Below are positions 1,979 through 30,011 of a stretch of DNA of 33,114 bases, in pieces. Location of the stretch: IMG/VR virus record IMGVR_UViG_3300036785_000212, positions 1 to 33,114 of that record; one strand, 5' to 3'. Position numbers and translations under genes: made by a program. Every line of letters starts with the position of its first letter. Within the stretch, counting starts at the first letter, position 1. The notes beneath the pieces were generated by a model that was given only the letters and a program-made list of their open reading frames with translations, did not search any database and was not told the origin of the DNA. The stretch is from a virus.

Positions 1979-2028
1979 AAAAAAAAACGCCCTGTCCTGT
2001 CCGCGCTGATCGCGGACAGGACAGGGCG
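1979..2028 (-). terminator. Intrinsic terminator of the minus-strand cassette
   Basis: A perfect 18-bp stem (CGCCCTGTCCTGTCCGCG at 1988-2005 with its complement at 2011-2028) closes a 5-base loop. Read on the minus strand the hairpin is followed by nine T residues (A-run at 1979-1987). It starts 13 bases beyond the stop of the last minus-strand gene at 2041, which is the right place and direction to end the cassette transcript. In the plus direction no T-run follows the stem, so it should act in one direction only. Confidence 0.95.
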
Positions 2029-2040
2029 CGTGATGCGCGG

Positions 2041-2295
2041 TTACAGAATGACGTTTGCTTCGCCTGGGCCGAAACAGGCGACGCGATGTCCGCATGCAAG
2101 TTCATTGACTGCATACGGATCAGCGCCGCGCGTGGACGAGTAGCGGACGACGCGTTGCGCGCCGTGGATCGGACACGCGTCCTGATCCTCGTCCATGATG
2201 ATGCGCGTGCGCCGCGGCGCGTGCTCCGCTAGATACTCGTCGTGATCCTCGACAGGGATCGCGTCGAGCACCTGTTCCATTGTTGGACGTTGCAT
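2041..2295 (-). CDS. Small Cys/His protein, last gene of the minus-strand cassette
   Basis: An 84-residue protein of unknown function. It has an acidic N-terminal half and two possible metal-binding pairs, CPIH (about residues 41-44) and CGH (about residues 68-70), suggesting a small zinc-binding fold. The ATG at 2295 is preceded by AGAAAGG (plus-strand positions 2305-2311) at a spacing of 9, which supports this start. It begins two bases after the stop of the preceding gene, and the strong terminator follows directly. No family is recognised. Confidence 0.75.
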   Translation of the reverse strand: MQRPTMEQVLDAIPVEDHDEYLAEHAPRRTRIIMDEDQDACPIHGAQRVVRYSSTRGADPYAVNELACGHRVACFGPGEANVIL

Positions 2296-2297
2296 GT

Positions 2298-2441
2298 TCA
2301 GTTCCCTTTCTGTTCTGTGTTGTCCAGCTTGCGATGCGGGCCGTCGAGCACGCGGTATTCCTCCGCGTGCTTGTCGCAGTAGCCCTCGTTGTATTCAGTG
2401 TCGAGCACTGTTGCGAGTTTCGTACACATGCAGCAGTTCAC
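2298..2441 (-). CDS. 47-residue CxxC/CxxH protein
   Basis: A short protein beginning MNCCMCTK and carrying GYCDKH about 15 residues later, so four Cys/His ligands could form a compact zinc site. The GTG at 2441 is chosen because AGAAAGG (2451-2457) lies 9 bases upstream; an ATG at 2429 is in frame but badly placed. The stop of the preceding 46-residue ORF overlaps this start as GTGA. The last residues (NTEQKGN) are encoded by the ribosome-binding leader of the next gene. Function unknown; possibly a small metal-binding or regulatory protein. Confidence 0.65.
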   Translation of the reverse strand: MNCCMCTKLATVLDTEYNEGYCDKHAEEYRVLDGPHRKLDNTEQKGN

Positions 2442-2578
2442 TTTCTGTTTCCTTTCTGTTGTGTGTGAGTGTTGCGCGAGTCCGACCGCGAAGCTGATAG
2501 CGCCTCGCGGTCGAACTCGTCGTCCGTCCAGTCGCAAACGCGAGCAGGATCGGCGGGCTTGTGGAACTTGTTGCGCAC
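2438..2578 (-). CDS. 46-residue hypothetical protein coupled to the VWA gene
   Basis: The GTG at 2578 lies two bases after the stop codon of the VWA gene, so translation could be reinitiated there. The product is charged, with VCDWTDDEFDREAL in the middle, and ends in THTQQKGNRK because the CA-rich AGAAAGG leader of the next gene is read through in frame. The stop overlaps the next start (GTGA). No domain is recognised. The tight spacing on both sides argues for a real gene, but a chance open frame is possible. Confidence 0.5.
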   Translation of the reverse strand: MRNKFHKPADPARVCDWTDDEFDREALSASRSDSRNTHTQQKGNRK

Positions 2579-2580
2579 TG

Positions 2581-4521
2581 TCAGCGCGTCCACTGTGTCG
2601 CGATGCGCCGCGCCGCGATGTCGCGGAACAGTGCAGCGAGTCCAGCAGGGTCCGCGATGTCGCGCGCAGTCTGACATTCATGCGACTGCATGCCCTTGCT
2701 GTTCGCTGCGAACCACGCGTTTGCGGGCGGCGGCAAATAGGCGAGGGCAGTTGTGATTCCAGCCTGATTCATCTGTCGGATGATCGTTTCGGATGCGGGC
2801 GCGTCGCTCCAATCTCCGTCCGTCAGGATCAGCATGATCCGTATGGGCGATTGACTGTTCGCGAGTATGCGATACGTTTCCGTGAGTGCTGACTTTGGGT
2901 CCGTTCCGTCGCACGCGTCAGGAACGAGCATGCGATTGTCGGGCCGTTCGTCAGGTCCGGCGAGCAAACGATGAGGTCCAGAATCCCAAGTGATGACTGT
3001 GCAAGTGCCCTCGATGTCATCAACAGCGCGTCGAATGGCCCACGCTGCGCGTGCAAGTGCTTCGCAGTGCGTGTCCATGCTTCCGCTGACATCGAGCAAC
3101 AGAACGACTTCCATATCTGTAGCGTCCATCTGTCCAGGTTCATAACGATCGAACATGGAATCCAGATCAGCGGCGGGGTTCATCACGCGTGCTGCGTTCA
3201 GTCGTCCGCTGTCCACGCGTCGAATCCATGCAGGTTCGCTTTCGTCTTTGAGGTCGAGCAACGCGTCACCTGTTGAGTGATGCAAACGACGGGCTTCGTC
3301 GTCCGCTTCTGTCCAGGTTCCGGGCGTCTCGTCCGCACTGATCGGATCGCCGGGGCGTCCGTAGTCCAGCGCGTCCAACACGTCGTCAAGGTCTGACGAT
3401 GCGTCGTTCTCGTTGAGCGCGTCCTGCGCGGCGTCGCGCAGCTGATCCTTGATGTCTTTGGGCGGGCGCGGCTTGCCGCGTCGATTGCCGCGCGACGTTG
3501 ACGTAGTGCTGTCATCGTCTCCGTCGTCGTCGTCTCCGTCGTCGTCGTCTCCGTCTCCGTCTCCTGACGCGTCGTCGTCTCCGTCGTCGTCGTCTCCGTC
3601 TCCGTCTCCGTCTCCTGACGCGTCGTCGTCTGACGCGTCGCTGCGTCCAGGTTCTCCGTCGTCGCAGGGTTCTCCGTCAGCGGCGGCGGAATCGTCGTCG
3701 CTGTCGTCGTCGTCCTGCGCGTTCGGGTCATCCTCGTCCGCTGTTGGAATGTCCGTTCCCGCGTCAGTGTCCGTGTCAGGTTCCCCGTCGCGCGGAATGT
3801 TGCAAGGTTCGGGCATTGTGGGCAACGCGTCCGCAAACAGGTCGTGCAGTTCCGTTAGGACTCTCCACGCTTCATCGACCTCGGATTCGCCGGGGTCTGT
3901 GAGGCGCTGATAGTCGCCTACTAGTTGCGCAACCTGATCCGCGATCGCATCGCTGCGCGCGGCAACGAAACTCGCACGCGCCGCGGCGCGCACTGACCTC
4001 GCGATCCATGTGCGTCCGCACAACAGAATCCATGCAGACTCACTGTCCGATACAACATGCGCGTGCAGCGCGGCGACGAGCGAGCCTGTCCACGGGGCGA
4101 ACTGCGACAGGATCAAACGTTCCTGTCGCTGATCCTCCACGATGTTGTGCAGCTTCATTATGCCGCGCATGAATATCTTCTCAGCTTCCAATGCGCGACG
4201 GATCAGTGTGGACTCTGTGCGCGGCGTGTAGAGCACGTGGCCCAACTCATGCGCGTTCGTTCCGATCCACACTGCAACGTCGAAGCGTGTTTCGGGAAAC
4301 GGCATCTTGCTCATGTTGAAACTGATCGCGTCACCTTGCAAGGTTGTCCATGCGGCGGCGGGTCCATGCTGCGCGACGTTCACGCTGTCCAGGTCGGGCG
4401 AAATGATCTGATCCGTGATCCGTAGTTCGCGGATCAGACGCTCGATGCGGACGCGTTGCTTCGCTGTGTATTTCTTGTCATCGAGTTCGACACTCGATGT
4501 TCCTTGTCGTTTCGTGTTCAC
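2581..4521 (-). CDS. HELGH metallopeptidase-like / VWA-domain protein, CobT-like architecture
   Basis: A 646-residue protein. Residues 1-230 are helical and carry HELGH (91-95, an HExxH zinc motif) with HNIVEDQRQE about 30 residues on, whose Glu could be a third ligand. Residues about 245-340 are an extreme Asp/Ser/Gly acidic linker. Residues 470-640 form a von Willebrand A domain with an intact metal-binding MIDAS: DVSGS (477-481), GTD (539-541) and TDGD (567-570). N-terminal domain, acidic linker and C-terminal VWA is the layout of CobT and related partners of MoxR/CobS ATPases. The ATPase is the next gene upstream, so the two very likely work as a complex that remodels or loads metal into a target. 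The GTG start at 4521 has AGAAAGG (4532-4538) 10 bases upstream. A metallopeptidase activity is possible but unproven. Confidence 0.85.
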   Translation of the reverse strand: MNTKRQGTSSVELDDKKYTAKQRVRIERLIRELRITDQIISPDLDSVNVAQHGPAAAWTTLQGDAISFNMSKMPFPETRFDVAVWIGTNAHELGHVLYTPRTESTLIRRALEAEKIFMRGIMKLHNIVEDQRQERLILSQFAPWTGSLVAALHAHVVSDSESAWILLCGRTWIARSVRAAARASFVAARSDAIADQVAQLVGDYQRLTDPGESEVDEAWRVLTELHDLFADALPTMPEPCNIPRDGEPDTDTDAGTDIPTADEDDPNAQDDDDSDDDSAAADGEPCDDGEPGRSDASDDDASGDGDGDGDDDDGDDDASGDGDGDDDDGDDDDGDDDSTTSTSRGNRRGKPRPPKDIKDQLRDAAQDALNENDASSDLDDVLDALDYGRPGDPISADETPGTWTEADDEARRLHHSTGDALLDLKDESEPAWIRRVDSGRLNAARVMNPAADLDSMFDRYEPGQMDATDMEVVLLLDVSGSMDTHCEALARAAWAIRRAVDDIEGTCTVITWDSGPHRLLAGPDERPDNRMLVPDACDGTDPKSALTETYRILANSQSPIRIMLILTDGDWSDAPASETIIRQMNQAGITTALAYLPPPANAWFAANSKGMQSHECQTARDIADPAGLAALFRDIAARRIATQWTR

Positions 4522-4566
4522 TGTCTTGTTGCCTTTCTGTTGTGTGTTGTGTTGTGTGCTGTTTGC

Positions 4567-5460
4567 TTAGACAATCTCGTGAATGTCGTTCTCGATGTCG
4601 AGTTCCGCCGCGATGCGACCTGCGGCGGCGTCGATGTTGCGAGTGATCGCAGTCCGTTCCTCGGGCGCGAACCTGTTGACGAACATGCGACGGGCGATGC
4701 GCATGCCCATTCGCCGCGCGTGACGCTCAAACTCTTTGAGTGAGTTCGTGCTGATCGGGGTGCGGATGTCTGCGAGTGATCGCGCGTTCTCCGCAATCTC
4801 CAACAGTGACGCGCTGTCGAGCAGTGTTGCTTCGACATCGTGATCGTAACCCCACTCAAGCTGCATCGCGAACTGATTCAACAGTGCTTCGTTGAGTCGC
4901 GACGTACCCTGATACCTGTCGTTGTACGCGCCTCCGAGCAGGACAGGTTGCGGGGCACCTAGTCCGCCGCGTCCTGCCTTGATCGTTTCCGCGTTCTCGG
5001 GCAGTGTCATCATGCGCGTGATGCTGATTAGCGCCTTGAAAGCTGCCATCACTCTCGGGTGGGCCATGTTGATCTCGTCCAACAGGATCACGCCTCCGTA
5101 ACGGGCAACGAGCGTCAGGTCGCCGTCCATCCATCGCAGCATCTTGTTTGTGTCCTGCGTCAGCTTTCCGACGACTGTTCCGTGATCCATCGACGCGTGA
5201 CATTCGACGAGTGCGAACGGAAGCTGTCGTGCGGCGGCGTATGCGCGGAACACTGTCGTCTTTGACGAGCCTGTGTCTCCGACGAGCATGACGTTTTCCT
5301 GTTCCTCTGTTGCAACGTCGAACAGGTCGAAGTCGTCCATGCCCTCTATCGTGCGATGCACGTAGGCATCCGCGATGCGGGGATTCGGGATCATTCCTGC
5401 GATCCGCTCGCGATCCTCGCCTGCGGGCACAGTCTCGATGTCAAACGTAGGGATGCTCAT
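4567..5460 (-). CDS. MoxR/CobS-type AAA+ ATPase
   Basis: A 297-residue AAA+ ATPase. Walker A is GDTGSSKTT (61-69), a variant of the usual GxxGTGKT; Walker B is VILLDEIN (124-131); and GGAYNDR near residue 178 is the sensor-1 region. MoxR-family hexamers act with VWA proteins to remodel targets or insert metal ions, and the VWA partner is the next gene in the transcript. The ATG at 5460 is chosen because AGAAAGG (5471-5477) lies 10 bases upstream. An in-frame upstream ATG at 5535 would only add the CA-rich leader translated as THTHNLTHTTQQKG and is rejected. The leader between 5461 and 5530 is almost pure CA dinucleotide, hence unstructured. The substrate is unknown; calling it a cobaltochelatase subunit would go beyond the evidence. 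Confidence 0.87.
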   Translation of the reverse strand: MSIPTFDIETVPAGEDRERIAGMIPNPRIADAYVHRTIEGMDDFDLFDVATEEQENVMLVGDTGSSKTTVFRAYAAARQLPFALVECHASMDHGTVVGKLTQDTNKMLRWMDGDLTLVARYGGVILLDEINMAHPRVMAAFKALISITRMMTLPENAETIKAGRGGLGAPQPVLLGGAYNDRYQGTSRLNEALLNQFAMQLEWGYDHDVEATLLDSASLLEIAENARSLADIRTPISTNSLKEFERHARRMGMRIARRMFVNRFAPEERTAITRNIDAAAGRIAAELDIENDIHEIV

Positions 5461-5537
5461 TTCAGTGTTGCCTTTCTGTTGTGTTGTGTGTGTGAGGTTG
5501 TGTGTGTGTGTTGAGGTTGCTTGCTTGCGCGGCATGA

Positions 5538-6260
5538 TTACAGTCCGCGCAGGTCGCCTGCGGCGCCCTTGCTCGATGCTGCGGCGGCAGGCTTCGCTGT
5601 TTTCTTCGCTGCGACTGCGGGCTGCGCGGGCTTGTTCTTCTGTGCTTTCTTCGCGCGCAGCTTGTCAACGTGTGTCGCGACTGCCGCGAGTCCGCGTTGC
5701 AGTTTCGTCAGGTCGTTGAGGTCCGTTGACGCAGGGATGAACGCGATCAGCTTCGATCCGCCGCCTTTCAGGTCGTTGAGTGCGTCGCTCACTTGCGGCC
5801 CACTCGCGGGCTGTCCAGCGGACTTGTCGTTGCGTCCGCGCTGTGTCGTAACGGGCTTGCCTTGCAAGACCTGGACTGCGCGTCGGACCTCTGCTGTCGT
5901 GACCTTGCTTGCACTGCCCTGCTGTCGCGCTAGGCGCTCCAACAGTTTGACGGCGCCGTCGATGGACTTTCCGTCGAATCCGCGCATCGCTTCGCGGTGC
6001 GCACTGAATGAGACGCCTTTGACGCGCTTGCCTGCGGGCCACCTGACTGCTGTGTCGCGGTACTGACGCAGTGTTGACTTTGTCAGCTTGCCTCCGACGC
6101 CCTCGTCTGTTGCCTTGCGCATGAGGTCATCGAATCCGTTGAGTCCGGCGGGGATCGCCGCTTTCAACGCTTCCGCGAGTGTCCAACGATCGCTCTCACT
6201 TTGCAGTGATCGCATCGCGTCGAGGACGGGGCGGGCTTGCTGTGCGGTTGGGGTTGCCAT
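5538..6260 (-). CDS. Hypothetical protein with a Lys/Ala-rich histone-like tail
   Basis: A 240-residue protein of unknown function. The N-terminal two thirds are helical and include LTKSTLRQYRDTAVRWP followed by GVSFSAHREAMRGF, a pattern that recalls helix-turn-helix proteins of plasmids and phages. The last 40 residues are rich in Lys, Ala and Pro (AKKAQKNKP, AAKKTAKPAAAASSKG), like histone H1-type tails that bind DNA or RNA non-specifically. The ATG at 6260 has AGAAAGG (6271-6277) 10 bases upstream. Being directly before the MoxR-VWA pair, it may be a DNA-binding adaptor or a regulator of the cassette; this is inference. Confidence 0.75.
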   Translation of the reverse strand: MATPTAQQARPVLDAMRSLQSESDRWTLAEALKAAIPAGLNGFDDLMRKATDEGVGGKLTKSTLRQYRDTAVRWPAGKRVKGVSFSAHREAMRGFDGKSIDGAVKLLERLARQQGSASKVTTAEVRRAVQVLQGKPVTTQRGRNDKSAGQPASGPQVSDALNDLKGGGSKLIAFIPASTDLNDLTKLQRGLAAVATHVDKLRAKKAQKNKPAQPAVAAKKTAKPAAAASSKGAAGDLRGL

Positions 6261-6323
6261 TTCAGTGTTGCCTTTCTGTTGTGTGTTGCGTTGGATTGAT
6301 TGTGATGCAGGGTTGTGACAGGT

Positions 6324-6545
6324 TCACGCGTCGTTGTAGTCGCGCAGGGCGTCGATGTACTCGGACTGAATGTCGTCCAGTGTGGCGGGGTTGCAGACAG
6401 ACAGCTGACTGTCTGCGTAGCTGAATCGTTCCAGTGTGTCGCAGTCGCCTAAGCGAACGACTGTGACCTCTCCGAACGCGACGCGCAGGACGCGTCCGAC
6501 TAATCCATCCTCGTCCATGACGTAGGTGTTCCGTGTGATGCTCAT
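6324..6545 (-). CDS. Small hypothetical protein, 73 residues
   Basis: A compact acidic protein whose first half (GLVGRVLRVAFGEVTVVRLGD) looks like beta strands of a small barrel and whose last part (DDIQSEYIDALRDYND) is helical. The ATG at 6545 has AGAAAGG (6557-6563) 11 bases upstream within a long CA-rich leader. Third codon positions are GC-rich, as in its neighbours. No family is recognised. Confidence 0.75.
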   Translation of the reverse strand: MSITRNTYVMDEDGLVGRVLRVAFGEVTVVRLGDCDTLERFSYADSQLSVCNPATLDDIQSEYIDALRDYNDA

Positions 6546-6595
6546 GTTGTGTGTTGCCTTTCTGTTGTGTGTTGTGTGTTGCGTTGCTGTGTTGT

Positions 6596-6850
6596 CTAGC
6601 GCGTGTGTTCCTTGCGTCCGATGTAGTCGGCGGGCGCGCCCTCATCGACAAGCTGATCCGCTATCTCGTTCTCGACGTAGCGCATCGCGCCGCGGAATGT
6701 CATCTGCTCGCGTTCCAGCTTGCTCACTGGCCCGCTTGTGACGTGGACAGTGAACGTGTCTCCGTCCGAACTGATTAGGTACGTGCATCCGACGCCCTCA
6801 ATGTGGGCGATGTCGAACAGTTCACGCGCTGTGTTGTGTTGCTTGCTCAT
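6596..6850 (-). CDS. Small hypothetical protein, first gene of the minus-strand cassette
   Basis: An 84-residue protein with a central beta-rich segment (CTYLISSDGDTFTVHVTSGPVSK) and a helical C-terminal half ending in charged residues. No motif is recognised. The ATG at 6850 has AGAAAGG (6861-6867) 10 bases upstream. It is the 5'-most gene of the cassette; two overlapping hairpins (6881-6930) lie just upstream in its leader, so it is the gene most directly exposed to control at that site. Confidence 0.75.
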   Translation of the reverse strand: MSKQHNTARELFDIAHIEGVGCTYLISSDGDTFTVHVTSGPVSKLEREQMTFRGAMRYVENEIADQLVDEGAPADYIGRKEHTR

Positions 6851-6854
6851 TGTG

Positions 6855-6877
6855 ATGTTGCCTTTCTGTTGTGTGTT
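6855..6877 (-). promoter_or_regulatory. Shared CA-rich ribosome-binding leader (one example of a family)
   Basis: On the minus strand the sequence CAACAGAAAGGCAACA precedes the ATG at 6850 by 10 bases. Nearly identical leaders precede most genes of the cassette; the AGAAAGG core lies at plus-strand positions 2305-2311, 2451-2457, 4532-4538, 5471-5477, 6271-6277, 6557-6563 and 6861-6867, always 9-11 bases before the start. Related plus-strand copies precede the genes at 30028, 32077 and 32798. AGAAAGG can pair with CCUUUCU at the 3' end of actinobacterial 16S rRNA. The flanks are CA-rich and unlikely to fold. The structural genes do not use it. Confidence 0.85.
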
Positions 6878-6930: not shown

Positions 6931-7585
6931 GCTCGTCCGCGGGATTGCAGATAAGTAGGGACCCTGTCGTGTCGTCACTGCGACGTTGTGTGTCGTGCGT
7001 TTGCGAGACGCATAGGTGACGTGAATCTCACGACAGACGGGGCGGGGTGTGTTGCACGATGCGATTCATGCGGCGGCTGGCAGTTCGCCGCGCATCGTCT
7101 AACGACAGGTCGCAGCGGGCTTCGTTCCACATTTGCTCGGACCTGTCGTCGTACTTATGCAGTGACGCATCGTGTAGCGCGTCTCGATTGCGAACGACTG
7201 CGAGTGAAATATGTGGGCTGTTTTGTCCGTGTCAACGGCACCTGGACTACTCGGGCCTCACTCTGCGTTTCGCGTTCAGTGTTCCATTCCGTTAGGTCAG
7301 TCCGGCGGGCTTCGGGTCCGGCAGCAGTGTCGTGTTGCACCTGCGTTGTCGAACCTTGTTCCGTTGTGACGAGAACACTCTGCTGTTGTGTTCGCACACT
7401 GCGGCAAGTTGAAACAGTGTGTGGAGACTTTCCCGCGCACTGCGGCGCAACGTCTCGGGGAATCCTGCGACTAGGCGCTAACCCCTGTCATCACTTGAAC
7501 GAAATGTGTCGTTCGCAGGGTCGCTGTGAGTCTCGATGGACTGCCCTGTCAGGCGACCTCGCAGGGCGCCTCGCGTGACACATAG

Positions 7586-7704: not shown

Positions 7705-7992
7705 CTCACGGGAGCCTGACCGGCTTGACTCCCGTGGGAACGCTCCCAAACGGGGCTGACCGGCCGCGGCCACGTGATTCCCGAGCCTGCGGCGGCGGAC
7801 CTACGATGCAGATGGGGCTGACCGGCCTGTCCTATTGGAAATGCTTCGGAGCGCACCGAATCTCAATAGTCAACCCGGTCAGCCCCGTTTGGGTGCTCTC
7901 GAGGACGTAGGCTCAACGAGCCTGACCGGCTTGACCCGGTGTCGTGCCTCGTAGGGGTGTGCAGCGAACCGATCAAGCCGGTCAGCCCCGTG
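7705..7992. repeat. Dispersed GGGGCTGACCGG repeat family, right cluster
   Basis: Six more copies of the family found at 421-1440. Forward copies lie near 7712 (GAGCCTGACCGG variant), 7752, 7813 and 7918; reversed copies near 7870 and 7970. CTGACCGGCTTGA in the 7918 copy and TCAAGCCGGTCAG in the 7970 copy form a perfect 13-bp inverted repeat. The last copy ends just before the probable -10 box of the ParB-like gene, so a protein bound there could control that promoter. Confidence 0.75.
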
Positions 7993-8005: not shown

Positions 8006-8598
8006 TGACAGCTGTGACGATCCTGCCGGGCCTGCAATCGCTCGCTGTCGCGATCGACGACCTGCGCACGATGCCGGGGAACCCGCATCACGGAGACATC
8101 GCCGCGCTTAAACGCTCATGGAGCATGTTCGGGCAGCGGCGTCCGCTCGTCGGGCGCAAGGATGCAAAGGGTCCCGGCGGCGAGATCATCGCCGGGAATC
8201 ACGGACTGGAAACGGCGCGTGAACTCGGCTGGACCCATGTGGCGGTGTTGTGGGTGGACGACGACGACGTGCGAGCGAAAGCGTTTGCGGCGGCGGACAA
8301 TCACACGGCGGAACTCGGCTTCGACGACCCCGAACTGCTCGCCGATTGGCTGCTCGACGTGCGTGCCGCCGACGTGGACCTGTTCGACGCGACGACGTAT
8401 GAACCGGCGGACCTGCTCAAGTTGTTGGACCCCGACGCCGCCAAACGCGAGACGGGGAACGGGCAACGGGGCGCGCCGGTTCAGGAGATTGCGTCCAGCT
8501 GGGCCGTGATGGTCACGTGCGAGGACGAGACGAGCCAGGTTGAACTGTTGGAGCGGCTGACGGACGAGGGCTTCGATTGCCGAGCGTTGATCTCATAG
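8005..8598 (+). CDS. ParB/Srx-like domain protein
   Basis: A 197-residue protein with an N-terminal ParB-like nuclease/nucleotidase domain. NPHHGD (about 26-31) and GEIIAGNHGLETARELGW (about 59-76) match the conserved ParB box, where GxHRxxAxxxLG is usual; here the Arg after His is Gly. DNHTAEL follows. The C-terminal 40 residues (AVMVTCEDETSQVELLERL) form a separate small domain. There is no obvious helix-turn-helix, so this is not a classical centromere-binding ParB. ParB-like domains in phages often accompany DNA-modification enzymes, and the next gene, overlapping by 22 bases, is an ATPase-acyltransferase fusion. The ATG at 8005 is preferred because a -10 box lies at leaderless distance. 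Confidence 0.8.
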   Translation: MTAVTILPGLQSLAVAIDDLRTMPGNPHHGDIAALKRSWSMFGQRRPLVGRKDAKGPGGEIIAGNHGLETARELGWTHVAVLWVDDDDVRAKAFAAADNHTAELGFDDPELLADWLLDVRAADVDLFDATTYEPADLLKLLDPDAAKRETGNGQRGAPVQEIASSWAVMVTCEDETSQVELLERLTDEGFDCRALIS

Positions 8599-9677
8599 TC
8601 GAGGCGCCGGTCAAGCGTTCGCCACGCGTGCTCCAAGTCGAGGGACAGTTCGACCTCGCCCGAGAAACCCGGCGCACGTTCCAGGTGCAAGCTGACCTGC
8701 CGATCGAGGACAAGCCGTGGCAGATCGGCGCGATCATCGGCCCGTCGGGGTCGGGCAAGTCCACGATCCTGCGTGCGCTCTACGGCGCTCACGTGCCGCT
8801 GGACTGGGATGCCAGGGCGTCGATACTCGACGCGTTCCCGGCGAACATGACGGTGCAGGAAGTGACCGGCGTGCTTAGTTCGGTCGGGTTCTCCACGCCG
8901 CCGAACTGGCTCCGTCCGTTCCAGACGCTCAGCAACGGCGAGCAGTTCCGTGCGACAGTCGCCCGGCAGCTGTGCAGCGCCGCCGCACCCATCGTCATCG
9001 ACGAGTTCACGTCTGTCGTTGACCGGGTTGTCGCCCGCATCGGGGCGGCGGCAGTGGCGAAGTTCGTCCGCAGGGAGGCCGGGCGTCAGCTTGTCGTCGC
9101 GTCCTGTCACGACGACATCGTCGAGTGGCTGCAACCCGATTGGGTGTTCGACACGGGCGGCGGCATCTTCACGTGGAGGCATCTTCAACGCCGACCCCGC
9201 ATCACTGTCCAGCTATATCGCACTACCGCCGAAACGTGGGGCTGGTTCCGCAAGCATCATTATCTGAACGATCACGACATTCCCCGGTCGTCGTTCTGTT
9301 TGTGCGGGCTGATCGCAGGCAAGCCGGTCGTGTTCTCGTCGTCCCTGCCGCAGATCGGATACAAGGGCATGCAGCGAGGCGCCCGTGTCGTCGTCCTGCC
9401 GGACTATCAGGGCGTGGGCATCGGCATCGCCGTGCTGTCCTACGAGGCGTCTCTGCACAAGGCACTGGGCAAGCGGTGGCGGGGAGTCTCGTCGGCGCCA
9501 GCCCTGATCCACGCCGTCGCCCACTCGCCGAACTTCCTGATCGACCGGATGCCGTCGATGAAAGGGGCGCATGAGGGCCGGGTCAAGTACGGCTCGCAGC
9601 GCCGGATCACCGTCAGCATGGAGTACGTCGGACCCCCGGCGACGATCGCAGAGGCGGCGGCGTTCGGACTCGGCTAG
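8577..9677 (+). CDS. ABC-type ATPase fused to a GNAT acyltransferase
   Basis: A 366-residue, two-domain protein. The ATPase half has Walker A GPSGSGKST (55-63), an ABC signature LSNGEQFRATVARQL (118-132), Walker B PIVIDEFTSVVD (138-149) and a switch His in SCHDD (176-180). There are no membrane segments, so it is not a transporter. The second half has FRKHHYL (224-230) and VVLPDYQGVGIGIAV (272-286), the latter being the acetyl-CoA-binding motif of GNAT enzymes. The start is TTG at 8577 with a weak GAGGG upstream, chosen because VDLIVEAPVK-SPRV reads as conserved protein; GTG at 8628 is an alternative. It overlaps the ParB-like gene, so the two are probably co-translated. The likely role is ATP-dependent action on DNA coupled to acyl transfer, perhaps base modification; the substrate is not known. 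Confidence 0.85.
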   Translation: MPSVDLIVEAPVKRSPRVLQVEGQFDLARETRRTFQVQADLPIEDKPWQIGAIIGPSGSGKSTILRALYGAHVPLDWDARASILDAFPANMTVQEVTGVLSSVGFSTPPNWLRPFQTLSNGEQFRATVARQLCSAAAPIVIDEFTSVVDRVVARIGAAAVAKFVRREAGRQLVVASCHDDIVEWLQPDWVFDTGGGIFTWRHLQRRPRITVQLYRTTAETWGWFRKHHYLNDHDIPRSSFCLCGLIAGKPVVFSSSLPQIGYKGMQRGARVVVLPDYQGVGIGIAVLSYEASLHKALGKRWRGVSSAPALIHAVAHSPNFLIDRMPSMKGAHEGRVKYGSQRRITVSMEYVGPPATIAEAAAFGLG

Positions 9678-13764: not shown

Positions 13765-14177
13765 CGACGACGAACGCCGCGCCGCCCCAGTCGGCGCTTT
13801 CTTCGCAGCGCGCACTCGCCACTCCGAGAGCGGGCACGGCAACGGTCAACGCGCAGCCGCCAGTCGTCAACCTGTTGCTCTATCAGGGCGACGATGTTCA
13901 TTTCGACCTCGTCGTGACGAACCCCGATGGGAGTGCCGCAGACCTGACTGGCATGACCCCGGCGGCGCAGATACGCGACAAGCCCAACGGCGCGCTGATC
14001 GCGACGTTCATGTGCTCGATCGCCACGAACGTCATCAGCTTGCACCTGCCCGCCACGGAGTCGGTGAAGTTGTCGGCGCCTGGTGTGTGGGACTGCCAGA
14101 TCACGTCGGCGACGCCCGAGGTCACGACACTCGCTGCGGGGACGGTGAGCACGGCACAGCAAGTCACGGCTCCGTGA
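13761..14177 (+). CDS. Virion protein with a baseplate/fibre-type beta domain
   Basis: A 138-residue protein. After a flexible N-terminus comes [39 protein letters not shown], then a strand-rich region ending in VWDCQIT and [14 protein letters not shown]. This pattern (a GDD entry strand, DLTG, a WD strand and a final VT) occurs in N-terminal domains of phage baseplate and fibre proteins of the BppU type. The next gene encodes a collagen-like fibre, so this may be its attachment partner on the capsid or neck. The ATG is at 13761, with ATGA overlap to the portal gene. Confidence 0.65.
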
Positions 14178-15760
14178 CAGAGGTTGACGTTGGCGGGCCG
14201 GATCGCGAGCAGATCACCGTTGCCGTCCCGGCACCGCGACGCGTCGTCGTCACTCCTGCGAGCGGGCACGCTGTCGCCGCCGGGCTGACAGGCGGCTACC
14301 AGGCGGGCGTGAGCGCGCCAGCTGCGGACACCGTCGTCACTGCTGCGCCGGGGTTGAGTGAGGTCGCCGTTGTCGGAGCGGGTCCGCAAGGTCCGCCGGG
14401 TCCGCCCGGTCCCGCGGGTCCGCAGGGTCCGTCAGGAGGTCCAGAAGGTCCGCCGGGTCCGACCGGGCCTGCTGGCCCGCCTGGCGCGGACTCGACTGTG
14501 CCGGGTCCGCAGGGTCCGAGTGGTCCGCCCGGCCCGCAGGGCAATCCCGGCCCGCAGGGCGTGGACGGCCCGACCGGGCCTGCTTCGACGGTGCCCGGCC
14601 CAGGCGGTCCACCCGGCGCTCAGGGGCCGCAGGGACCGCCAGGGCCGACAGGGGCGGACTCGACCGTGCCGGGTCCACCCGGAGCGACAGGGGCGGCAGG
14701 TCCGGCGGGTCCGCCTGGCGCCGACTCGACTGTGCCGGGACCGCAGGGTCCGGCGGGAGCGACAGGTCCGGCGGGTGCGGACTCGACTGTGCCGGGACCG
14801 CAGGGTCCACCTGGCACGACAGGTCCGGCAGGTCCGCCCGGTGCCGCCTCGACTGTTCCCGGTCCGGCAGGTCCGCCCGGTGCCGCCTCGACTGTGCCGG
14901 GTCCGCAGGGTCCGACCGGACAGACGGGCGCGCAAGGCCCGCAGGGCAATCCCGGCGCGACGGGCGCGACGGGTCCCGCATCGACGGTGCCGGGTCCGAC
15001 TGGGCCGCAGGGTCCGATCGGACTGACGGGCGCGACCGGCGTGCAAGGCCCGAAAGGCGACACGGGTGCGACTGGCGCCGCTTCGACTGTGCCGGGTCCA
15101 ACGGGTCCGACCGGGGCGACTGGCGCGCAAGGGCCGACAGGTCCCGCTGGCGCGGATTCGACGGTGCCCGGCCCGCAGGGTCCGGCGGGTGCGACTGGGC
15201 CGCAGGGACCTGCCGGTGCGCAGTACCCGTCGTTGCCCGCTCCGATACCGGGGGCGATGTCTACGTTCGTCGATCAGCTGGGCGACCAATGGGTCGCTAA
15301 GGGCGCCGTTGACAGCGGGAAGTGGCACCGGGCCACGGACGCCTTCGCCTGCATCTACCACCGCACCGGAGCGTGGACCCTTTCGAGTACGGCGAACCAG
15401 AGATGGGACTGGGACACCGTTTACAAGGACACCTACGCCCTGGCGAGCGCATCACCGTTCACTACGCCCTGCGCCGGACGCTGGCGCATCCGAGCCACCC
15501 TCGGCGTGAACTTCACCGCTGCCGGTCAAACACTCTCGGTCGGACTCACGGTCGGCGGCAACGTCAGGACCAACGCTCAGATCATCGTCGGTAGCGCCTC
15601 GACAACCGCCGACTGCTCCGTCGAGTGGGAAGAAAACGTCGCACTCGGCACGGCACTCGGCGTGGTTTGCAGCGGCACGAACGGACTGTCTGGACGGGTG
15701 GCTGCGTTCGGCGTCGCCACCTGTGTCGTCATCATCGAGTACATGGGCATCTCACTCTGA
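14174..15760 (+). CDS. Collagen-like fibre protein
   Basis: A 528-residue protein. Residues 1-70 are an anchoring region; about 71-350 are Gly-X-Y collagen repeats (GPQGPPGPP and similar); about 355-528 form a beta-rich tip resembling C1q/TNF-type heads. The collagen stretch is broken ten times by an STVPGP segment preceded by AD, AA or PA, at spacings of about 12-45 residues. The triplets predict a trimer. Its position between portal and MuF genes suggests a capsid or neck fibre, not a tail fibre. The GTG at 14174 overlaps the previous stop (GTGA). The DNA is highly repetitive, so copy number may vary between isolates. The long minus-strand frames here are shadows. Confidence 0.9.
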
Positions 15761-29622: not shown

Positions 29623-30011
29623 GCGGTTCAAGCCCGACCGCCCTGTCCCTGGCCCACCTGCGCTCCGACGGGTGGCTGGTCGATGTCTGCGAGCGGTGGG
29701 TGCCGCTGCACGGCGGCAAGATCAAGCGCGACCTGTTCGGGCTGATCGACCTCGTCGCTGTCCGGCCCGGCGAAACGCTGGGCGTGCAGACGACGAGCAG
29801 CGCCAACTTCAACGCCCGACTGAACAAGATGACCGACGACGATCACTACCCGGCGGTGTCCGCGCTGATGAGCGCCGGGTGGCAGGTCGTGATCCACGGG
29901 TGGCGCAAGTCCACACGCGACGGACACGCCTGTAAGCACGGGCATGCGCGCTGCGGTTGTCGCTGGGTGTTACACCGCGAGATCACACTGCATCCACGGG
30001 TCGAGCCGTAA
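29619..30011 (+). CDS. PD-(D/E)XK-like nuclease family protein
   Basis: A 130-residue protein. KRDLFGLIDLVAVRPGETLGVQTTSSANFNARLNKM has the form of a restriction-like core: an acidic residue after a Phe-Gly turn, then a strand ending in GVQTT, where Gln replaces the usual Glu of E-x-K. The C-terminus holds Cys/His residues (ACKHGHARCGCRW). Such proteins are common in actinophages near replication genes and may be resolvases or inactive derivatives. GTG at 29619 is the start (GTGA overlap). Confidence 0.65.
   Translation: MSGSSPTALSLAHLRSDGWLVDVCERWVPLHGGKIKRDLFGLIDLVAVRPGETLGVQTTSSANFNARLNKMTDDDHYPAVSALMSAGWQVVIHGWRKSTRDGHACKHGHARCGCRWVLHREITLHPRVEP

Follow-up and report, generated by a model that had tools for sequence, protein, structure and literature searches.

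A minus-strand phage cassette pairing a MoxR-type ATPase with a metallopeptidase-like VWA protein

The window analysed here, a virus record of 33,114 bases, carries on its minus strand, from position 6850 down to 2041, a gene cassette built around a MoxR-type AAA+ ATPase (g4) and an adjacent VWA protein (g5) that appears to bear a zinc-peptidase-like domain at its N-terminus. With moderate confidence, we read this cassette as an ATP-driven MoxR AAA+/VWA remodelling machine similar to NorQD, equipped with a peptidase N-domain, working outside the late structural operon and served by the product of the preceding gene, g3, as a partner. The gene order, the motifs, the conserved g3-ATPase-VWA trio and the shared leaders are read directly from the sequence. 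Pairs of a MoxR ATPase and a metallopeptidase-vWA protein have already been described in phages (Iyer 2021, PMC7824862), and the cassette is a variant of these.

MoxR-VWA pairs are common in phages and are often named vitamin B12 or porphyrin genes in databases, a label against which our family tests argue, and in the literature searched we found no functional test of such pairs from tailed phages. The zinc-peptidase motif is universally kept, and in one clade the pair and its dedicated third partner make up a compact genetic unit. Since the pair occurs in Gordonia and Brevibacterium phages that can be cultured, its function in phages is directly testable.

Layout of the cassette and its repeated leader

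The eight-gene minus-strand arrangement described by an earlier sequence-only reading is confirmed, with open reading frames, motifs and a terminator-like hairpin all present, seven of the genes being well supported and one (g6) doubtful. The first two, g1 (6596..6850, 84 aa) and g2 (6324..6545, 73 aa), are open reading frames with leaders; g1 gave no family match in Pfam and PHROGs searches, while g2 has a single relative (41-43%), located upstream of the cassette in the phage of locus L080. They are followed by g3 (5538..6260, 240 aa), defined by alignments of relatives and an AF2 model, by g4 (4567..5460, 297 aa), assigned through its AAA_5 match and a profile search against the PDB, and by g5 (2581..4521, 646 aa, GTG start). 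Next comes g6 (2438..2578, 46 aa), which we regard as doubtful because it is the sole gene lacking a leader, overlaps the leader of g7 and has no relative that we could find. The product of g7 (2298..2441, 47 aa) is Cys-rich (CCMC...CDKH) and, by its sequence, a possible zinc binder, and that of g8 (2041..2295, 84 aa) contains the Cys/His motifs CPIH and CGHRVAC. The small proteins had been described as Cys/His-rich metal-binding partners, a description that fits the appearance of g7 and g8 and of none of the other small genes. Directly past the last stop codon, a strong hairpin of 19 pairs, resembling an intrinsic terminator, is followed by TTTTTTTT (T8; 1987..2029, minus strand).

A 17-mer leader, ACAACAGAAAGGCAACA, stands ahead of g1 (6856..6872, minus strand) and is repeated on the same strand in exact copies at 6552-6568, 6266-6282, 5466-5482 and 4527-4543 and in variant copies at 2446-2462 and 2300-2316. 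Allowing up to three mismatches, the window holds eight copies where 0.04 are expected, and seven of them lie in the cassette, at a nearly constant distance 5' of the start codons of seven of the eight open reading frames; the single copy outside is on the plus strand at 30011. Because the copies concentrate in this way, the cassette is a unit beyond chance. For the ATPase, the ATG at 5460 is the most likely start, in preference to 5535, because the repeated leader runs up to that point. Conserved repeats that span the ribosome-binding site before several genes are also known as Start-Associated Sequences from cluster K mycobacteriophages (PMC3203893), but the cassette leader differs from them in sequence and is almost confined to one operon. 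Upstream of g1, a sigma-70-like promoter match (TTGACA-16-CATATT; 7208..7235, minus strand) is weak, with two such sites in the region against 1.5 expected.

The main block of the window lies on the plus strand and comprises ParB-like, ABC/GNAT, terminase, portal, protease, scaffold, capsid and tail genes, a lysin and an exonuclease; no Rfam family and no tRNA were found in the window. The G+C content of the cassette is 59.7%, that of the rest of the window 66.2%. The cassette core is also lower in G+C in two of the related genomes (G006 and G010) but not in most others, for which reason recent acquisition of the cassette is not shown by this comparison.

Several features around the cassette were noted in passing. 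It is flanked on either side (421-1435 and 7750-7991) by some 14 copies in all of ACGGGGCTGACCGG, after which NYTGACC often comes, and the element also flanks the cassette of the sister phage L014 (L180, 8931-9161 and 15259-15366); a search of other viral contigs for the element in a longer exact form gave no match. Tandem 17-bp repeats of CAGGGTCCAGGGTCCGA occupy 1725-1877, just outside the terminator. A single gene at 8577-9677 encodes an ABC-type ATPase half joined to an acetyltransferase-like half (phrog_11143, 1.2e-95), and it adjoins a ParB-like gene in the sister phage as well. Between portal and head protease, a collagen-like open reading frame of tail-fibre type spans 14012-15760, with a G+C fraction of 0.749 in 14001-15000.

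The ATPase and its VWA partner

By sequence, g4 is a MoxR-type AAA+ ATPase with Walker A (GDTGSSKT, residues 61-68, 5257..5280) and Walker B (VILLDE, residues 124-129, 5074..5091), both located from alignments. Its family matches are AAA_5 in Pfam (1.1e-17) and phrog_249 in PHROGs (2.4e-28), and a profile of five homologous phage ATPases searched against the PDB returned midasin at 7.5e-73, NorQ/CbbQ at about 1e-26 and CobS at 5e-12. The alignments place Gln196 of g4 (4873..4875) at the position of the Arg in the NRF motif, which is kept in nearly all close relatives and is presumed, by analogy, to be the arginine finger. The Gln may be a real change or an assembly or sequence error, and could mean weak activity.

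The neighbouring g5 product consists of three parts, namely a zinc-peptidase-like domain (residues 1-235, 3817..4521), an acidic, Asp/Gly-rich linker (residues 236-415, 3277..3816) and a VWA domain bearing a MIDAS site (2581..3276). The last is recognised by a weak match to Pfam VWA_2 over residues 472-569, at 7.6e-5 and under the curated cut-off, and by invariant columns that include the MIDAS residues D477, S479, S481, T540 and D568, the first three within the DVSGS motif at 477-481. A MoxR-type ATPase with both Walker motifs thus stands beside a VWA protein with the MIDAS pattern DxSxS-T-D, as in other members of the MoxR AAA+/VWA group.

In the N-terminal domain, the HELGH motif occupies residues 91-95, and H91, E92, H95, N126, E129, R132 and Y204 are invariant across 56 relatives of g5. 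This set fits the pattern of zinc peptidases of the HExxH...E type, with E129 as the likely third zinc ligand judging by its conservation. The domain was modelled by AF2 with a pLDDT of 91 over the 260 residues modelled, the confidence dropping from about residue 236 on, and the model looks zincin-like. The top Foldseek list consists mostly of zinc metallopeptidases (M1 aminopeptidases, abylysin/selecase, Wss1), with a best E of 0.11 that is not significant, and a Pfam search with the domain and its 56 relatives found no family. All 53 distinct VWA partners that were reached via their ATPase contain HExxH; the count was limited to these loci since the scan for VWA genes itself used HEL and EDQR peptide seeds. 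As every one of these partners has it, the peptidase motif appears to be kept by selection, and the invariant set as a whole favours the peptidase reading of the N-domain.

Conservation across phages and the third protein g3

The VWA gene lies directly after the ATPase gene in 105 of 115 non-redundant phage loci, which bears out the earlier view of a MoxR ATPase and an HExxH-VWA partner as one unit. The loci come from contig fragments, and the scans that yielded them depend on short exact peptides; scanning viral contigs with the single sequences of g4 or g5 found nothing, and profiles were needed. Among named phages, the pair occurs in Gordonia phages GMA6, ScarletRaider and DalanDe and in Brevibacterium phage Cantare, annotated as AAA-ATPase and CobT-like. 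These pairs are adjacent, their ATPases share 33-35% identity with g4, and they have the HExxH and EDQRIE-type motifs in common with the cassette, but they lack g3 and have other small neighbours and a longer ATPase C-terminus.

Within the clade of the window the ATPases are 45-61% identical, and g3 precedes the pair in every sufficiently long contig, whether reached via the ATPase, the VWA gene or g3 itself. A further 14 contigs have it ahead of the pair, and no contig with sufficient flanking sequence showed it apart from the pair. Phages beyond this clade lack g3, from which we infer that the machine works without it there. Whether the genes travel together had been set beforehand as the decisive question, and the answer is divided: the ATPase, the VWA gene and g3 stay together, while the small genes do not. 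Searches next to the pair in other phages gave no significant relatives of g1, g6, g7 and g8 (the sole match to g8, weak at E 0.017, lies upstream of the L009 cassette), and g2 has the one mentioned above, so that the proposal that the small genes belong to the functional unit is not supported. Since g3 is always with the pair and the small genes have no such relatives, the conserved unit, as read from these sequences, is g3-ATPase-VWA in the clade of the window and ATPase-VWA more widely. Another large phage group has different small genes beside the pair (clusters 6 and 7).

In the window, as in seven out of eight other genomes with which it was compared, the cassette and the structural genes are on opposite strands; in G011 both share one direction. 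In the Gordonia phages the pair sits beside helicase/primase genes. In a minority of loci (L061-L073) the VWA-like gene precedes the ATPase or lies on the other strand, and in Microbacterium phage Cece (L006, 4764-9247) a related AAA-ATPase gene lies directly before rIIA-like and rIIB-like genes.

The g3 protein, modelled by AF2 with a pLDDT of 79, is composed of a helical N-terminal region, a second helical region, a Lys/Ala/Pro-rich linker of low confidence and a C-terminal tail. In an alignment of 13 sequences, the window and twelve relatives, the linker varies and a tail close to GDLRGL is conserved (residues 235-240, 5541..5558, minus strand). Two modelled helices (43-52 and 61-73) suggest a possible helix-turn-helix at residues 43-73 (STLRQYRDTA; 6042..6134, minus strand). 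A Foldseek search against the PDB gave nothing significant, the highest probability being 0.30 for the ParB-family protein Noc (7ng0); BFVD returned uncharacterised phage proteins at E 0.01, and searches of PDB, Pfam and PHROGs weak, scattered matches. A DNA-binding role of g3 is a lead, suggested by this weak fold match of the model. Named phages yielded no match to g3, and in 84,980 prokaryote genomes no relative could be confirmed either for g3 or for the profile of the close-clade ATPases; these scans need exact short peptide patterns and hence do not prove absence.

Proposed mechanism and alternatives

A close counterpart is NorQ/NorD of denitrifiers (PMC9976466, PMC13036017), likewise a MoxR ATPase with a partner consisting of an N-domain, a long disordered linker and a MIDAS VWA domain. 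There, the VWA domain inserts a finger into the pore of the ring and contacts the post-sensor loop with its C-terminus, and as ATP is turned over, the linker that joins the VWA domain to the N-terminal domain is twisted and stretched (PMC13036017). Among MoxR partners the N-domains are said to differ and to confer specificity for the target (PMC9976466); that of NorD is not described as a peptidase in these two papers, and the target of NorQD is nitric oxide reductase. Because g5 has the same order of parts, we infer that the phage machine uses the mechanics of NorQD. By this analogy, g4 would form a hexameric ATP-driven ring into which the VWA end of g5 docks, holding a target via its MIDAS site, and the acidic linker would bear the predicted zinc-peptidase domain where NorD has its target-specific N-terminal domain. 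The motor would then pull on and twist the bound protein and, if the predicted peptidase activity is real, probably clip it. More speculatively, g3 may be a dedicated third partner, as adaptor or substrate, with a helical domain whose ligand is probably DNA or a nucleoprotein complex and a flexible tail whose GDLRGL end offers the motor or g5 a short peptide. The target of the cassette is probably a DNA-bound complex of host or phage.

The closest published pair, from group 2.2 jumbo phages (ASV44729/ASV44728), was proposed by Iyer et al. to serve virion assembly (PMC7824862). As judged from its published domain description, it shares with the cassette a MoxR gene beside a vWA gene with a fused N-terminal metallopeptidase domain, which in g5 is indicated by the invariant HExxH and E129 and the zincin-like model, with a fold match that is not significant. 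The cassette differs in residing in much smaller tailed-phage genomes (records of 28-40 kb) and in having g3 and the repeated leaders. A chaperone-protease that processes and remodels head or tail proteins would have this proposal for the same domain layout behind it, as well as an archaeal precedent in the tail development of Acidianus two-tailed virus (cited in PMC7824862 and PMC7911831). We nevertheless consider it unlikely, though the strongest of the alternatives. A separate head maturation protease is already encoded in the window, adjacent to portal and scaffold. As the cassette is equipped with leaders and a terminator of its own and is oriented against the late structural genes, an orientation that most g3-bearing relatives share, it most likely acts outside virion assembly. 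The antisense position to the late genes and the helicase/primase neighbours of the Gordonia pairs speak against a purely structural role.

Superinfection defence, raised by the sequence-only reading, found no positive evidence, and we judge a role in superinfection exclusion, defence or counter-defence, directed at another phage or a host immune complex, to be rather improbable. The cassette's own leaders and terminator, the variable small neighbours and the MoxR ATPase adjoining rIIA/rIIB in phage Cece are circumstantial points in its favour, but PADLOC returned no convincing match (best E 0.0055, a partial match of the ATPase to mad8), no VMAP-type third component was recognised, and all of the clade retains the core trio, which is not patchy.

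A more specific version of the remodelling machine was prompted by repeats in the g3-bearing relatives L012 (= L175/L176), L079 (= L181/L182), L013, L009, L014 and L081, in which a perfect 16-bp palindrome, TGATAGACGTCTATCA, or variants of it occur genome-wide, for instance in 19 copies in 34,031 b and 14 in 35,548 b. These palindromes are stoperator-like or parS-like. The sequence TAGACGTCTA occurs 128 times in 648 kb of g3-bearing loci, overlapping loci being counted repeatedly, against a single copy in the 2,053 kb of cassette loci that lack g3, and the phage of L080 has a different palindrome, TTGACATTCGAATGTCAA, in eight copies. If g3 bound the TGATAGACGTCTATCA sites specifically and its GDLRGL tail recruited the motor to remove or clip it, the cassette would be a genome-wide regulatory or segregation switch, an AAA+ protease machine acting on a DNA-bound protein. 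We give this idea an outside chance and keep it out of the main explanation because the window itself has no copy of the palindrome that is spread over the genomes of its relatives. The putative g3 helix reads TLRLYRD in L009, L012, L013, L015, L016, L079 and L161, whose phages have a palindrome of the GACGTC type; L080 and the window, both of which lack that palindrome, have TLRQYRD. The sample is small and confounded by descent.

To return to the remodelling machine, the same ATPase-VWA architecture is found in cobaltochelatase CobS/CobT, and Liu et al. (PMC8651126) proposed CobST for tailed viruses, calling the peptidase annotation a mistake; the pair would then load cobalt into the corrin ring with host CobN and raise vitamin B12 in favour of the phage, as database names also suggest (porphyrin biosynthesis for phrog_249, CobT-like in GenBank). 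This we hold to be very improbable, and metal loading of the cobaltochelatase type is unlikely because the CobS/CobT-like label of the sequence-only reading fails its family tests: the CobS equivalog model TIGR01650 gives 20.2 bits against a cut-off of 558.55, and no match to CobT PF06213 was obtained in the window, with a positive Caulobacter control. CobN is present in none of 27 cassette phage records, host CobN being conceivable, and ribonucleotide reductase exceeds its cut-off in one of the 27, outside the g3 clade. To our knowledge, the conserved HExxH has no role in cobalt chelation, and the domain that carries it sets the cassette apart from CobS/CobT. The phage ATPase profile is far closer to midasin, NorQ and CbbQ than to CobS.
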